Shown one piece after another: positions 1-5,048 of a stretch of 7,821 nucleotides of DNA; position 1 is the stretch's first letter; each line of letters opens with the position of its first letter. The DNA is from JACPSX01 sp035288405 [NCBI: bacterium] (GTDB lineage: Bacteria > JACPSX01): the NCBI GenBank assembly GCA_035288405.1, contig DATEAK010000108.1, positions 1-7,821 of the forward strand. The letters run 5' to 3'. The position numbers and the translations under genes are program-made. A model generated the notes under the pieces. It saw only the letters and a program-made list of their open reading frames with translations, had not been told where the DNA came from and ran no database searches.

Positions 1-522
1 CAGCAGAACTTGTTTGATTCTCTCATGAAGCTAAGGGATGCCCAAAGGCATATGCGCGGCCGGTCGACCGGCGTGCTTTCGGGGAATGAGCTGGCCTGGG
101 AAATCAATCCCCATGGAATCATGCGTTGGTACCTGCATCCCCTGTTCATGTACACAACGCTAAGGAACTTCTCCGCCTACATGCAGTACATCCCTCCCGG
201 AAGCTGCAGCGGTCTGCAGCGACATCCCGGAGACAAGGTCTTCTTCTTCCTGCAAGGCAACGGCCATACGGCCATTGACGGAACTTCTTACCAGTGGGGA
301 GCGGAGGACCTGTTGATGCTTCCCATCCGGCCCCACGGGGTAACCTATCGGCACTTCAACGACGATCCTCAGTCGCCCGCTTTCCTGTTCGCATGCGAAC
401 CCAACCTGGCTTTCACTCTGGATCTCGATCGCGGGAGCGGGTTCGAAGAGCTGGAGGCGGCACCGGAATTTCAAAAAGAAGGATCGCAAGCCCCGTCGAG
501 AATCGCCGTACCGTTCGATTAG
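1..522 (+). CDS. Cupin-fold protein, 5' end cut by the window edge
   Basis: A single-domain cupin. The frame is open to the left edge. Internal starts exist (TTG at 10, ATG at 25, ATG at 52) but none has a convincing ribosome site, so the true start is probably upstream. Residue numbers below count from the TTG at 10 as 1. Residues about 55-130 form the double-stranded beta-helix. The first cupin motif fits the classical spacing G-x5-H-x-H-x3-E-x6-G as G64, Q70, H72, K76, G83, so one histidine and the glutamate are replaced. The second motif reads P108-x-G110-x2-Y113-x3-N117, with Tyr where the metal histidine normally sits, although H109 and H115 are close by. A normal Mn/Fe/Zn site is therefore doubtful. 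No signal peptide or membrane segment is seen in the visible part, so it is probably cytoplasmic. It lies 57 bp before the first M24 gene and probably belongs to the same operon. Possible roles are ligand binding, isomerase or dioxygenase-like chemistry, or regulation; the substrate is unknown. Confidence 0.8.
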   Translation, partial: QQNLFDSLMKLRDAQRHMRGRSTGVLSGNELAWEINPHGIMRWYLHPLFMYTTLRNFSAYMQYIPPGSCSGLQRHPGDKVFFFLQGNGHTAIDGTSYQWGAEDLLMLPIRPHGVTYRHFNDDPQSPAFLFACEPNLAFTLDLDRGSGFEELEAAPEFQKEGSQAPSRIAVPFD

Positions 523-579: not shown

Positions 580-1722
580 ATGAACGATGACCTTTTCGCC
601 GAGTGTCAGGACCGTCTCAAGCGAACCTGGCTTGCCATGGAGGAAAAGGACTTCGACTTTCTACTCGTTTACGCCGGAGGGAAACGGGAAATGCAGCGAA
701 TGGATGGTGTCCGCTATCTGACCGGGTATTCCGGGCTGGGCGACCATTCCCTTCTGCTCGTACGCAAGCAGGAGATGCCGATCCTCTACGTAAATCCACC
801 CGACGCTGCCGACATCGCCAAAGAAGAAGCGGCATTAGGCGAAGTTGTTGGAGAGGAAGATTTCGTTCCCCGTGCCGTCCACGACTTGAAAGCCCGCAAA
901 CCGGGAAACGGTCGAATCGGATTTGTGGGACAGGAGTTCATGCCCGCGGGACTTTTTCAGAAGCTCTCCGGACAGATCACCGGTTCTCTCTGCGTGGATC
1001 ACGATTTCCTGAAGAGAGTCGGCCGCAGCAAAACTCCATGGGAAATCGAGAGGATCCAACGAGCCCACCGGATGGCCGACGCAGGTTTCCTGCACATGGT
1101 CGAGGTGGCAAAACCGGGGATGAGGGAGTTCGAGTTGTCAGCAGAGCTGGAGAGGGCTTTGCGGATGCAAGGGGCCAGAGACAATTTCGGGCTGGTTGCC
1201 TCTTCCAAGCACAACCCGGCGATCCGACCGCCGACGGACAAAAAATTGGAAACGGGAGACTTGATCATTGCCGAGATCAGTCCCGAATGCGACGGCTACT
1301 TCGCTCAGCTCTGCCGGACCATCGTCCTGGGCGAACCTTCGGAGATACTCAGAGAGAAATTTGAGCTACTCAAAGTGGCTCTCCGCAAGGGGATCCAGGC
1401 TGCCAGACCCGGCGCCCCGGCCGTGGAGGTGGCGCGGGCCATAAACCGGATCCTGGAGGAGGCAGGTTATGAGGCTTACTGCAAGCCGCCCTACATGCGC
1501 TCCCGGGGACATGGCCTGGGGCAAGGGTCACCCTTCCCGGGCAACCTGAGCGAAGAGGATGGAGTCGTCCTCGAAGAGGGCATGACCTTCATCATTCATC
1601 CAAATCAGTACATTCCGGAAACCGGTTATCTCATGCTGGGAGAGACCTGCGAGGTAACCCAAAACGGCGGAAAAAGCTTCTCGTCCTTGGCACAAGACAT
1701 TTTCTCCACCCACGGAATTTGA
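580..1722 (+). CDS. M24-family creatinase/prolidase-like hydrolase (degenerate metal site)
   Basis: A full-length 380-residue M24 protein, close to the usual size of creatinase and Xaa-Pro dipeptidases. The ATG at 580 follows GGAGG (569-573) at a spacing of 6. Residues about 10-140 form the creatinase N-terminal domain and about 152-370 the pita-bread catalytic domain, joined by a typical linker (SKTPWEIERI, 150-159). The five dimetal ligands of M24 peptidases (D, D, H, E, E) align to E232, Q243, H311, H340 and E355, so only the GHG histidine and the last glutamate are kept. H211, just before the strand carrying E232, sits where creatinase has its catalytic histidine and methionine aminopeptidase its substrate histidine (tentative alignment). 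Creatinase itself is a metal-free M24 enzyme that splits creatine to sarcosine and urea. I infer hydrolysis or lysis of a C-N bond in a small molecule rather than peptide cleavage. It is cytoplasmic, with no signal peptide. A paralogue follows after 27 bp, and hyuA and hyuB lie downstream. Confidence 0.82.
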   Translation: MNDDLFAECQDRLKRTWLAMEEKDFDFLLVYAGGKREMQRMDGVRYLTGYSGLGDHSLLLVRKQEMPILYVNPPDAADIAKEEAALGEVVGEEDFVPRAVHDLKARKPGNGRIGFVGQEFMPAGLFQKLSGQITGSLCVDHDFLKRVGRSKTPWEIERIQRAHRMADAGFLHMVEVAKPGMREFELSAELERALRMQGARDNFGLVASSKHNPAIRPPTDKKLETGDLIIAEISPECDGYFAQLCRTIVLGEPSEILREKFELLKVALRKGIQAARPGAPAVEVARAINRILEEAGYEAYCKPPYMRSRGHGLGQGSPFPGNLSEEDGVVLEEGMTFIIHPNQYIPETGYLMLGETCEVTQNGGKSFSSLAQDIFSTHGI

Positions 1723-1749
1723 TCGGAACAAGAGAACCATGAGGCGACC

Positions 1750-2925
1750 ATGAACACCTATGATTCGGTACTGCGCAGAGGGTTGACTAGCTGGGACCAG
1801 GAAAAGATTCCAAAAACAGAACTGGAGCGGAGGCTCGACCTGATCCGTACCGAGATGAAAGCACGCGGGATCGGGGTTCTCATCATTCATGGGGATAGTT
1901 GGAAGTACGGTGACCTTTGCTACGCCACCCATTATTCTCCCATGACCCGGGAAGGGGTGGCTCTAATCCCGCTGGAAGGCGACCCCGTCCTTTACCTGTC
2001 CCTGGGCTCCCGGGATATCCCTTTCCATCAGGAGCTCACCTGGATCGAGGAGGTCACCACTCTGCCAACTCTCACCAAAGAGCTTGCCGGCCGCCTGCAA
2101 GCTTGGGGCGTTCAAGGCAGTCCCATCGGGATGGTCGATGTTCTGGAGAACATGCGAGATCCCCTCTACGAAGCCATCCGTGCTCAAACCAGAGGTTCGG
2201 CACTGCTCCCCTGCACGGAATGGTACCGAAAGCTTCGGTTGCTCAAGAGCCCCGCGGAAATCCCGCTGCTCAAGGAGGCCACAGGCATCGCGGATTTCTG
2301 TTTCCAAGAAATCCTCCGTTACCTAAACCCGGGTCTGCGAGAGTTCGAGCTTGCCGCCCAGGCGGATTATGCGGCCCGTGCCCATGGAGCGGAAGATTGC
2401 CGAATCTTATTGACCTCGGGGTCCGACACCGATCGATTCCTGCGTCCCGCCGGCGACCGCAAGATTGGTCCGGGGGAAAAGGTCACCGTCTACCTGGCTC
2501 TTGCCTATCAGCGCTATTGGACCGAACTCGGACGCACGATCGTGGTCGGCGGACCCAACAGGCAGGAAAACCTCGTCCTGGAAGAAACCACAAAACTCTA
2601 TGAGCAGATCGTGCAGTCTGTAGGACCAGGCCAGGGAGGACTATCTTCCATGGCGCAAGCCTTTCACGCTTTGCAGGCGCACCAGGAGAAGCATCAGGCC
2701 CAAAGCTCCGTGATCCTGCAAGGAATCGGTCTGGACCGGGAGGAGGATCCGCGCATCCCGATTTCTCCGACCCCTTCGCCGCTTACCCCGGGGATGTTCT
2801 TAAGCGCCCGACTCACGCAGTTCGGCCCCGGCATCGGAGCGTTTTTTTCCGAGCCCTTACTCGTAGGTGCGAATGGCTGCGAAATCCTGACGCGCACGGA
2901 ACGTCGCTTGTACCAGGCAACCTAG
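1750..2925 (+). CDS. Second M24-family protein, probable pseudoenzyme or partner subunit
   Basis: 391 residues with the M24 architecture: N-terminal creatinase domain about 25-155, linker around LKSPAEIPLL (165-174), pita-bread domain about 172-385. It shares the PG-x-REFEL motif (194-201) with the upstream protein (179-186), so the two are divergent paralogues. The catalytic site is almost erased. The strand that normally reads GD-x4-D keeps its spacing, but the ligands become Y248 and E259, the GHG histidine is Q324 (LQGIGL), the next glutamate is R354, and only E368 remains. The creatinase-type histidine position is T227. The intact reading frame and preserved fold motifs argue against a decaying gene. 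The ATG at 1750 follows GAGG (1741-1744) at a spacing of 5. In creatinase the active site lies at the dimer interface, so a structural or substrate-binding role in a heteromer with the upstream protein is plausible (inference). A new metal-free chemistry is the alternative. Confidence 0.8.
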   Translation: MNTYDSVLRRGLTSWDQEKIPKTELERRLDLIRTEMKARGIGVLIIHGDSWKYGDLCYATHYSPMTREGVALIPLEGDPVLYLSLGSRDIPFHQELTWIEEVTTLPTLTKELAGRLQAWGVQGSPIGMVDVLENMRDPLYEAIRAQTRGSALLPCTEWYRKLRLLKSPAEIPLLKEATGIADFCFQEILRYLNPGLREFELAAQADYAARAHGAEDCRILLTSGSDTDRFLRPAGDRKIGPGEKVTVYLALAYQRYWTELGRTIVVGGPNRQENLVLEETTKLYEQIVQSVGPGQGGLSSMAQAFHALQAHQEKHQAQSSVILQGIGLDREEDPRIPISPTPSPLTPGMFLSARLTQFGPGIGAFFSEPLLVGANGCEILTRTERRLYQAT

Positions 2926-2963: not shown

Positions 2964-5048
2964 ATGCGAATTTGTATCGACATTGGCGGAACGTTTACCG
3001 ACTTTATCGCCCAAGATTCCTCCGGACGCATTCTCCTCTACAAGACCTTGACGACTCCTCAGGATTACACGGAAGGGATTCGAACCGGACTGGCGAATTT
3101 ACGAGTCCCCGCGAACGAAGTGGATATGTGCGTCCACGGCACCACGATTGCGATCAATACCATCATCGAACGCAAGGGGGCGAGAACCGCACTTGTCACA
3201 ACGAAAGGATTCCGGGACGTGCTGGAGATCGGACGAGGGAATCGTCCCAACAGTTACAATCTCTTCTTCAACAAAGCCGACCCTCTGATTCCCCGATCCT
3301 TACGCTTAGAGGTGACGGAACGCGCGAACAGCCGAGGAGAAATTCTCACCGCCCTGGACAGTAAAGAAGCCGCCGAAATGGCAGCTAAGATTGCTGACAC
3401 AGATGTAGAAGCCGTCTCCGTCTGCTTCCTGCACTCGTACAATAATCCTGCCAACGAGGAGTCCCTGGGAAAGATGCTGCGGGAGCGCTTACCCCATGTG
3501 TATATCACGCTTTCCCATGAACTTCTGCGCGAGGCCCGGGAATATGAACGGACGAGCACCACGGCCATCAACGCCTATGTAGGCCCCCGAGTCTCGAAGT
3601 ACCTGCGCAGCATGAAGGGAGTTCTCAAAGAGTCCGGCCACGAGAGCCCCGTGTTCGTCATGGAATCCAATGGCGGTGTCATGTCCTTGGACGAGGCGAT
3701 TCTCAAACCGGCCAATATGATGGAGTCGGGTCCTGTCGCCGGAGTCGTGGGAGCGGGCTGGGTGGCGAAAGGTTTGGGATTGGAGAAAGCCATTTCGTTC
3801 GATATGGGAGGGACCACCGCAAAGTCCAGTTTCCTGCAAAATGGCGACCCCAAGGTTTCCACGGGCTACTACATTGGCGGATACGAAACCGGACTCCCCT
3901 TGATGCTTCCGGTCGTCGACATCCTGGAAGTCGGCGCCGGAGGAGGCAGCATTGCCTGGATCGATGAGGGAGTTTCTTTGAAAGTAGGCCCCTTGAGCGC
4001 CGGGTCGGAGCCGGGACCGGCCAGCTACAACAAAGGAGGCACGGAGCCGACCGTTACCGATGCCGATATTTTCCTGGGACGGACCAATCGGGACCATTTC
4101 TGCGGAGGGGAGGTGAAGCTCGACCCCGACCTGGGGAAACGGGCCATTGAAAATTCCGTAGCCCGTCCGCTGGGCTTGAACTTGTTGGAATCCGCTCTGG
4201 GCATCACCCGGATCATTGACACGAGCATGTCCCTGGCCGTGAGGCAGATTTCCGTGGAGCGGGGTGAGGATCCGCGGGATTGCACCTTGATCGCCTACGG
4301 AGGGGCCGGTCCTCTGCACGCGGTCGCCATCGCCAGCGAGCTTTCCATCTCCCGAGTAGTGATCCCGCCGGCCCCGGGAAATTTTTCGGCTCTGGGGATG
4401 TTGTTTACTCAACTCCGGCACGACTATGTCCGCACCTGCTTTCACCCGAGCTTCGCAAACACCGACCTGGGCCAAATCGAGAGCGTCTTCCGTGATATGC
4501 AGAAGGAGGCGGAAAGAACGCTGGGAGCCGAAGGCGCCATTCAGGGCACGCTCCACGTTACCCGGACCCTTGACCTCCGTTACCGCGGGCAGGAATACAC
4601 TTTGCCCATTCAGTTGCCGGAAGGTCCCCTGAACGAAGAAAAGCGGCGGACCATTCGAGAGTTGTTTGATGCCCATCACCAGGCGCGCTATCGGCATCAT
4701 GCCAAGGCAGAGGATATTCAGATCGTCAACGCCCGAATCAGCGCCGTAGGCAAGGTCTCCCAGGATGAGGTGGCGCAGCTGGATCGGATCGGGGAACTCT
4801 CGTTTCGCTCTTCCAGGCCAAGAGCCGTCGACGGCCCGAAGTTTCGCCGCGTGTGCTTTGAACTCTCCACCGGCTTTTCCCCTTGTCCCGTCTACGATCG
4901 GGAAACTCTGAACCCGAATCAGCAAATCCCGGGACCCGCCCTCATCGATGAAGCGACCTCGACGACCGTCATCCCCCCCGGCTGGGATGCCAAAGTCGGT
5001 GCGGGAGGTTGTTTGATTATCGAGCATCGCACATCCGGGAGAGGTTAA
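2964..5048 (+). CDS. hyuA: HyuA: hydantoinase/oxoprolinase ATP-binding subunit
   Basis: 694 residues, the normal full length for HyuA. The N-terminal hydantoinase-A domain opens with the phosphate-binding motif D6-IGGTFTD-13, followed by VHGTT (57-61). The core ASKHA-type ATPase domain has ESGPVAG (254-260), FDMGGTT (279-285), EVGAGGGS (322-329) and GPLSAGSEPGPASY (342-355), then TVTDADIFLGR (363-373) and YGGAGPLHA (445-453). The C-terminal hydantoinase-A domain carries LRYRGQEYTL (538-547). In characterised relatives (N-methylhydantoinase, 5-oxoprolinase, caprolactamase, acetone/acetophenone carboxylases) this subunit uses ATP to activate an amide or enol oxygen by phosphorylation, and HyuB completes the reaction. 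Here a cyclic amide or lactam substrate is favoured (inference). The ATG at 2964 has a modest AGGA (2952-2955). The gene begins 38 bp after the second M24 gene; hyuB follows after 46 bp. It is cytoplasmic. Substrate specificity cannot be read from sequence. Confidence 0.93.
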   Translation: MRICIDIGGTFTDFIAQDSSGRILLYKTLTTPQDYTEGIRTGLANLRVPANEVDMCVHGTTIAINTIIERKGARTALVTTKGFRDVLEIGRGNRPNSYNLFFNKADPLIPRSLRLEVTERANSRGEILTALDSKEAAEMAAKIADTDVEAVSVCFLHSYNNPANEESLGKMLRERLPHVYITLSHELLREAREYERTSTTAINAYVGPRVSKYLRSMKGVLKESGHESPVFVMESNGGVMSLDEAILKPANMMESGPVAGVVGAGWVAKGLGLEKAISFDMGGTTAKSSFLQNGDPKVSTGYYIGGYETGLPLMLPVVDILEVGAGGGSIAWIDEGVSLKVGPLSAGSEPGPASYNKGGTEPTVTDADIFLGRTNRDHFCGGEVKLDPDLGKRAIENSVARPLGLNLLESALGITRIIDTSMSLAVRQISVERGEDPRDCTLIAYGGAGPLHAVAIASELSISRVVIPPAPGNFSALGMLFTQLRHDYVRTCFHPSFANTDLGQIESVFRDMQKEAERTLGAEGAIQGTLHVTRTLDLRYRGQEYTLPIQLPEGPLNEEKRRTIRELFDAHHQARYRHHAKAEDIQIVNARISAVGKVSQDEVAQLDRIGELSFRSSRPRAVDGPKFRRVCFELSTGFSPCPVYDRETLNPNQQIPGPALIDEATSTTVIPPGWDAKVGAGGCLIIEHRTSGRG

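Follow-up and report, generated by a model that had tools for sequence, protein, structure and literature searches.

This study examined two adjacent genes of the M24 family, here called M24a and M24b, in a 7,821-nucleotide stretch of contig DATEAK010000108.1 from the bacterium JACPSX01 sp035288405 (assembly GCA_035288405.1); the whole stretch is referred to as the window. The data show that M24a and M24b are distant paralogues lying side by side, a before b, that purifying selection acts on both and that their divergence has run in parallel. Considering the sequences together with structure models, we regard it as fairly probable that the two proteins form an obligate heterodimer with one working site, in which the C-terminal domain (C-domain) of M24a would be capped by the N-terminal domain (N-domain) of M24b. 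The pair most probably acts on small molecules as a hydrolase or lyase, a heterodimer with a single active site, encoded in uptake and catabolic operons and often beside the ATP-dependent hydantoinase/oxoprolinase subunits HyuA and HyuB (HyuAB), and it probably works without a dimetal centre.

Altered metal sites in M24a and M24b

Both proteins scored above the Pfam cut-offs for Creatinase_N and Peptidase_M24 and so belong to the M24 fold superfamily, as the original prediction from the window held, and they are encoded, as it also stated, by two intact, adjacent open reading frames (ORFs) of similar length. No NCBIfam model reached its cut-off for M24a or M24b, and the two window proteins share 27% identity across 238 residues. 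The five metal-ligand columns were assigned by alignment with M24 proteins that retain the canonical D-D-H-E-E set, which gave the following features.

580..1722, + strand: M24a, 380 amino acids, Creatinase_N and Peptidase_M24 domains, rebuilt E-Q-H-H, proposed catalytic subunit
1273..1275, + strand: codon of E232, column 1, canonical D (alignment)
1306..1308, + strand: codon of Q243, column 2, canonical D (alignment)
1510..1512, + strand: codon of H311, column 3, canonical H, kept (alignment)
1597..1599, + strand: codon of H340, column 4, canonical E (alignment)
1639..1644, + strand: codons of G354 (column 5, canonical E) and the conserved acid E355 (alignment)
1741..1744, + strand: GAGG, ribosome-binding-like site, 5 bases before the M24b start (sequence)
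1750..2925, + strand: M24b, 391 amino acids, Creatinase_N and Peptidase_M24 domains, without the ligand set, proposed non-catalytic partner
2491..2850, + strand: altered site of M24b, whole (alignment)
2491-2493, 2524-2526, 2719-2721, 2809-2811 and 2848-2850, + strand: codons of Y248, E259, Q324, R354 and S367 of the altered M24b site (alignment)

Columns 1 to 5 are thus E232, Q243, H311, H340 and G354 in M24a, followed by the acid E355, and Y248, E259, Q324, R354 and S367 in M24b. The first four residues that had been named for each protein stand, and the fifth ones (E355 and E368) lie one residue past the ligand column.

E-Q-H-H was present in all 36 M24a proteins, the window included, and in none of the 37 M24b proteins, and every one of the 35 M24a rows reaching column 5 has G there with an acid (D or E) directly after it. 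The D-D-H-E-E set of a catalytic M24 metallopeptidase occurred in 0/36 M24a and 0/37 M24b proteins; among 60 other M24 proteins in the same alignment it was found in 43, and a further 14 carry E-[PA]-Y-[IM]-[ST] and presumably resemble ectoine hydrolase. This distribution indicates that the pattern in the window did not arise by chance, and peptidase activity of M24a–M24b is unlikely because the metal ligands are lost. M24b has no family-wide residue set at the ligand columns and is instead regular branch by branch, with Y-E-x-R in 11/37 rows (the branch of the window) and R-R at the first two columns in 17/37. The proposal of complementary loss, in which one metal site is shared out between the chains, is not supported, given this contrast between a fixed E-Q-H-H in M24a and no common set in M24b. 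Complementarity is seen instead between the M24a C-domain and the M24b N-domain, and in the best reading one site would be rebuilt and the other degenerate.

M24a might still be a metalloenzyme in which a single metal ion is bound by E232/Q243, H311, H340 and the acid at 355, in a site of the two-histidine-one-carboxylate type that replaces the dimetal centre, with M24b as a structural partner. We take this to be a serious though lesser possibility: the two His, the Glu, the Gln and the following acid are fixed throughout M24a, a metal-independent relative would not obviously need two histidines there, and the ectoine-hydrolase-like rows have other residues at these positions. The acid that always follows the column-5 glycine makes a shifted carboxylate possible. 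However, two of the five ligands are lost outright (D to Q and E to G), and creatinase also keeps some ligand-like residues without a metal. Since two histidines plus Glu/Gln could hold one metal, the metal-free site that was originally predicted now stands between no metal and one.

Pairing of M24a and M24b across genomes

The first contig scan covered the best 80 of 344 M24a relatives (loci L004–L083). Nineteen of these loci (L004–L022), in records titled Alphaproteobacteria, Deltaproteobacteria or Syntrophobacter and, once, Acidobacteria, were counted as close; M24b was found in 18 of them, and the exception, L014, is a contig that ends inside M24a. The other 61 loci had no M24b, at the profile level of a clear M24b, beside the M24 gene. 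In L007, counted as paired, M24a (3355-4516) is split across two frames in a metagenome-assembled genome and M24b is intact.

An M24b profile, A4, applied over 13 genomes, gave at least 119 bits for M24b against at most 96 for other M24 proteins and revealed extra M24b copies; for two M24b with lower scores (about 62 and 72 bits), the position beside M24a was the sole means of recognition. With a clear M24b defined by a profile score of at least 110 bits, M24a lay directly upstream on the same strand of 34 of the 36 clear M24b in all loci, and the other two stood at contig ends (L100 and L101). Viewed from the other side, 34 of 36 M24a pair with a clear M24b; of the remaining two, one has a lower-scoring M24b (79 bits) next to it downstream, and the contig of the other breaks off there. 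Nine of the paired rows are near-copies from Neorhizobium relatives, some ORF starts were overcalled so that a few gaps appear as overlaps, and the count skipped L001, with its split genes, and the locus duplicates L084–L094. A separate M24a search in 15 genomes yielded 28 matches of at least 260 bits, with M24b directly downstream in 27 (two of these weak, below 110 bits) and a contig end in one; one weaker match (190 bits) stands alone.

These data show that M24a–M24b pairing is a property of the whole family. Co-occurrence, which the original prediction had named as a check, was thus seen, in that a clear M24b apart from M24a was encountered only at the two contig ends, and an M24b standing alone with intact ligands was looked for and not found among the 36 clear M24b and 37 aligned rows.

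The rarity of the pair was estimated by scans limited to a maximum of 5 to 10 scored candidates in each genome, which makes the counts lower bounds. In the phylum of genome G001, matches occurred in 4/247 genomes and pairs in three, G001 included, and G080 has a single M24 with intact ligands. The order of G005 gave matches in 2/297 genomes (G005 itself, plus G418, whose M24 is of another type), the phylum of G007 in 1/199 (G007 itself) and the class of G010 in 2/385 (G010 itself and G806, with a canonical M24); the class of G048 consists of that genome alone. One scan of viral contigs gave no M24a relative, phage records gave no DNA match, and among the plasmid records inspected (the listings showed 40 of 117 and 40 of 1006) the operon occurred only in those of Neorhizobium galegae. 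In one of these, N. galegae VafX2 (L001 6267-11436), HyuB, M24a, M24b and the PrpD gene are each annotated as two genes, unlike in L002 and L003, which looks like reading-frame errors or decay.

Other multiple M24 arrangements were also observed. Several of the other 61 loci (such as L036, L040 and L058) contain more than one M24 of other kinds, and in the Chloroflexi locus L040 (8977-12744) three M24 genes stand in a row with the columns H-E-H-H-N, H-E-H-H-D and S-E-H-E-S. Three overlapping tandem M24-like ORFs with strongly altered columns, such as E-Q-R-E-G, are found in genome G048 (L121 6402-9940, minus strand), and on a Sinorhizobium americanum plasmid (L119 1-8143) an amino acid ATP-binding cassette (ABC) transporter is surrounded by three genes of the Xaa-Pro peptidase family. 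In L110 (7790-14398), two M24 proteins lie 2.8 kb apart with F-E-H-H-C and S-E-H-H-A, neither of them M24a nor a clear M24b.

Co-evolution, domain conservation and selection

In a tree of 100 M24 proteins, for which 21 of the 43 canonical rows were kept (about every second was omitted), M24a and M24b each fell on one side of a branch, with support of 100 and 96 in the Shimodaira–Hasegawa-like approximate likelihood ratio test; the long branches make deep placement unsure, and the tree does not decide which of the two is older. The M24a and M24b subtrees over 26 loci shared 19 of 23 splits, and their path lengths were correlated at r = 0.96 (Mantel test, 0/5000 shuffles). Nine near-identical Neorhizobium-type rows were omitted from the trees, from the M24b conservation count and from the 26-locus domain comparison.

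The two proteins differ in which domain is kept. The median ratio of N-domain to C-domain identity was 0.54 in M24a and 0.50 in the 43 canonical M24 proteins, against 1.26 in M24b, in which N-domain identity exceeded C-domain identity in 94% of 608 row pairs; in the 14 ectoine-hydrolase-like proteins the domains were about equal (42.6% and 41.7%). When compared locus by locus, the M24b ratio lay above the M24a ratio in 300/300 evaluable pairs of loci (325 in total, 25 with too few shared columns). Identity of the M24b C-domain was 20%, against 38-39% in M24a and canonical M24, and that of its N-domain was 25%, against 19-21%.

The ratio of nonsynonymous to synonymous substitution rates (dN/dS) in M24b was 0.04-0.15 for the N-domain and 0.15-0.26 for the C-domain, with C above N in 10/10 comparisons, and in M24a N was above C in 7/9, some dS values being saturated. 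Because both of its domains are under purifying selection, M24b is not a decaying gene. The pair thus combines a fixed site in one chain and none in the other with joint encoding and selection on both, as in a paralogue pair of a catalytic chain and a pseudoenzyme, roles that had been predicted and that remain assigned from sequence.

Structure models of the pair

M24a and M24b of the window lie in the same reading frame. This allowed a fused chain, obtained by reading through the stop codon that separates them, to be modelled with AlphaFold2 in place of the complex. The model of the window pair (30 aligned rows) reached a mean predicted local distance difference test score (pLDDT) of 85.6 and a predicted template-modelling score (pTM) of 0.87, with pLDDT below 50 in the linker and two short loops, and a second fused pair from the other branch, L019 (32 rows), reached 89.3 and 0.89. 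Values this high suggest a confident relative placement of the two halves in these models. Together with the pairing, the mirrored trees and the purifying selection on M24b, the predicted packing of two divergent pairs lends the heteromer of the original prediction good, if indirect, support.

The M24a half of the window model matched ectoine hydrolase 6yo9 best (Z 38.6, root-mean-square deviation 2.5, 362 residues), tied within 1 Z with X-Pro aminopeptidase 2zsg and dipeptidase 3q6d. For the M24b half, the best match listed was creatinase 7yto (Z 37.2, root-mean-square deviation 2.5, 362 residues), with 1chm at Z 37.0. The matches listed for the L019 model were to its M24a half only, with prolidases on top, above ectoine hydrolase, and the creatinase preference of the M24b half was not repeated among them. 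A shared fold is no proof of a shared function.

Proposed heterodimer and the closest known systems

From these data and from known M24 dimers, we infer an arrangement in which the N-domain of each chain would cap the pita-bread (C-terminal) domain of its partner. The M24a C-domain, rebuilt as E-Q-H-H plus acid, would be the only working site and would be capped by the M24b N-domain, with the M24b C-domain as a non-catalytic scaffold. The kept parts, namely the M24a C-domain and the M24b N-domain, would then form the working site, and the less kept parts would form an idle one. A precedent is the dimethylsulfoniopropionate (DMSP) lyase DddP, for which excerpts of PMC4108388 describe a homodimer whose two sites are each covered by the N-domain of the opposite chain. 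If the same capping applies here, the kept domains may form one working site. DddP resembles the proposed pair in using the M24 fold for non-peptide chemistry with an N-domain over the partner's site, and differs from it as a homodimer that, according to those excerpts, keeps the dimetal ligands (PMC4108388).

As for the chemistry, the enzyme may, more speculatively, break or rearrange a C–N bond (amide, amidine or ureide) of a small, probably cyclic, imported compound, in a reaction likened to those of creatinase or ectoine hydrolase. HyuAB, when present, would open a lactam or cyclic imide at ATP cost in the same pathway.

Creatinase (1chm, 1kp0, 7yto) is metal-free and has a dimeric site in a homodimer of identical active chains. 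It is like the pair in combining Creatinase_N with the pita-bread fold and in being the best listed match of the window M24b half; unlike creatinase, the pair consists of two unequal chains. The sequence match of 1chm was weak for M24a (E 1.4e-6) and absent for M24b at E 0.001. Ectoine hydrolase DoeA/EutD (6twk, 6yo9), which acts on a small cyclic C–N compound, gave the top structural match of the window M24a half; it differs in being a single gene, and its likely relatives carry E-[PA]-Y-[IM]-[ST] rather than E-Q-H-H-G. Both window proteins fell far below the NCBIfam cut-offs for DoeA (M24a 54 and 50 bits and M24b 45 and 43 bits, against 575 and 613). Xaa-Pro dipeptidase/prolidase (1pv9, 1wy2, 3q6d) and aminopeptidase P share the fold and were the best sequence matches (M24a E 4.9e-34, M24b E 7e-21). 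These peptidases carry the dimetal ligands, a set that neither window protein has.

To our knowledge, the M24 relatives discussed in this comparison form homodimers or other homo-oligomers or exist as monomers. Excerpts of PMC8438212 describe the bimetallic centre of the Xaa-Pro dipeptidase/prolidase group, and the M24 fold and its homodimers are treated in parts of PMC8438212 and PMC5774706. The M24 pseudoenzyme Ebp1/PA2G4 is described as related to methionine aminopeptidases, and the excerpts among the matches listed tie it to no catalytic paralogue partner. Comparable in arrangement is the trypanosome S-adenosylmethionine decarboxylase (AdoMetDC) with its prozyme, where, in excerpts of PMC5201418, a dead paralogue serves as the functional partner of the catalytic chain; the fold is unrelated to M24. 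A literature search for heterodimers of an enzyme and its dead paralogue gave no M24 case among the matches listed, and open-licence literature, which leaves subscription journals mostly outside, gave no M24 heterodimer and no operon of this type among the matches listed.

Neighbouring genes

The window has a G+C content of about 58% and six genes, all on the same strand; besides M24a and M24b these are as follows.

10..522, + strand: cupin-like ORF, 170 amino acids, start unsure; Cupin_2 26.4 bits, just below the Pfam cut-off of 27.2
2964..5048, + strand: HyuA, hydantoinase/oxoprolinase subunit A; Hydantoinase_A 297 bits
5095..6792, + strand: HyuB, hydantoinase/oxoprolinase subunit B; Hydantoinase_B 521 bits
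6871..7662, + strand: nitroreductase-family protein; Nitroreductase 88 bits

Related cupins lie directly upstream of M24a–M24b in L107, and relatives of the nitroreductase also occur in L004. The window's HyuA and HyuB are encoded next to each other and carry the Hydantoinase_A and Hydantoinase_B domains, which places them in the hydantoinase-oxoprolinase group. Relatives of HyuAB hydrolyse lactams in an ATP-dependent manner, as in the caprolactamase described in excerpts of PMC8453981 as two subunits, CapA and CapB, and parts of a Ti-plasmid paper (PMC6733357) propose a role for HyuAB on opine lactams. The window proteins fall in the same Pfam families as caprolactamase and below its cut-offs, with 544 and 270 bits against the 1000 of the CapAB NCBIfam equivalog.

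Plasmids of N. galegae carry HyuA, HyuB, M24a and M24b in a row, followed downstream by a PrpD-like gene, a NitT-type ABC transporter and an amidohydrolase, with a LysR gene upstream in the annotated record. Identities between the window and N. galegae were 45% for HyuA, 53% for HyuB, 32% for M24a and 21% for M24b, and one annotated record with the operon names its pieces aminopeptidase P, M24 metallopeptidase or hypothetical. HyuB was found in 19/19 and HyuA in 18/19 of the close loci (the L011 contig begins inside HyuB), and HyuA or HyuB occurred somewhere in the fetched stretch in nine of the other 61. Among 27 pair loci, HyuB was present in 21, HyuA in 20 and solute-binding proteins in 13.

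Pairs without HyuAB have other neighbours, namely UbiD-type decarboxylases (L107 14397-16860 and L105 7435-9408), PrpD-like genes (L103 and L105), a class II aldolase (L103), an aconitase (L108) and solute-binding proteins. The UbiD genes hint at different substrates for different branches of the pair. A different M24-hydantoinase gene association was observed in L025 and L070, where HyuA, HyuB, an M24 with intact D-D-H-E-E and a second HyuB stand in a row, and in L073, with HyuB, M24 and HyuB.

Weighing the heterodimer against the alternatives

Several observations weigh against an obligate heterodimer with one working site and HyuAB at its side. In L111 (2255-3343) a single M24 has E-Q-H-H-G; no M24b accompanies it, and the next genes encode NMT1-type binding proteins, so that such a site may work in a homodimer. 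An L110 protein of 107 bits, below the M24b threshold, has the columns F-E-H-H-C and no M24a. L103, L105 and L107 contain the pair with no HyuAB in the fetched DNA on both sides, and L108, cut upstream, has none downstream, with L100 and L101 being cut as well; HyuAB is hence not obligatory, and as it is frequent yet not constant, the M24a–M24b unit is the constant part. The regularity of Y-E-x-R and R-R within branches allows a branch-specific role of the M24b C-domain, and M24b may, on this sequence pattern, keep a function of its own at the altered site. The inverted domain ratio of M24b stems mostly from a released C-domain and partly from a better-kept N-domain. Few near-invariant residues were found in the M24b N-domain, where the conserved positions include W15, R28, P64 and R88, and no trans-acting catalytic residue was identified. 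Finally, AlphaFold2 has learned from M24 homodimers and may impose their arrangement on any fused pair of M24 chains.

The L111 protein is a possible homodimeric relative. An origin of the pair from a homodimer, with L111 as a relic bearing an M24b-like N-domain, was considered and is not supported by domain profiles: whole-length profiles scored its N-domain at 65.5 bits for M24b and 44.5 for M24a, and the difference with domain profiles was +7 bits, inside the range of the 43 canonical M24 proteins (-10 to +12.5).

Two separate homodimeric enzymes that catalyse different steps, and are adjacent only through a shared pathway, would fit the purifying selection on both M24b domains, the repeated Y-E-x-R in the branch of the window and the tandem M24 genes of other kinds in L040, L121 and the Sinorhizobium plasmid. 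We judge this unlikely, as M24b has no family-wide residue set at the catalytic columns, and pairing and mirrored trees persist across different sets of adjoining pathway genes (HyuAB, UbiD or PrpD). A regulatory or chaperone role of M24b towards M24a, or docking of the M24 pair on HyuAB as a large lactamase complex, in either case with no capping of an active site, has the frequency of HyuB and HyuA at pair loci and the activating dead paralogue of trypanosome AdoMetDC (excerpts of PMC5201418) in its favour, and is nevertheless improbable given the pairs without HyuAB in L103, L105 and L107 and pair models that already predict one compact unit.

The preferred heterodimer can be given a fuller form, in which the obligate pair is asymmetric, its E-Q-H-H (plus acid) site is completed in trans by the N-domain of the degenerate paralogue, its chemistry is new for the pita-bread fold, and it acts beside HyuAB on a cyclic nitrogen compound; this whole we put forward tentatively, as somewhat short of probable. 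If true, a family in which one chain has lost its site and kept its N-domain conserved would offer a natural experiment on the reasons for M24 dimerisation and on the origin of pseudoenzymes, and it would mark an unassigned enzyme of catabolic operons in Alphaproteobacteria, in genomes titled Deltaproteobacteria and in one titled Acidobacteria.

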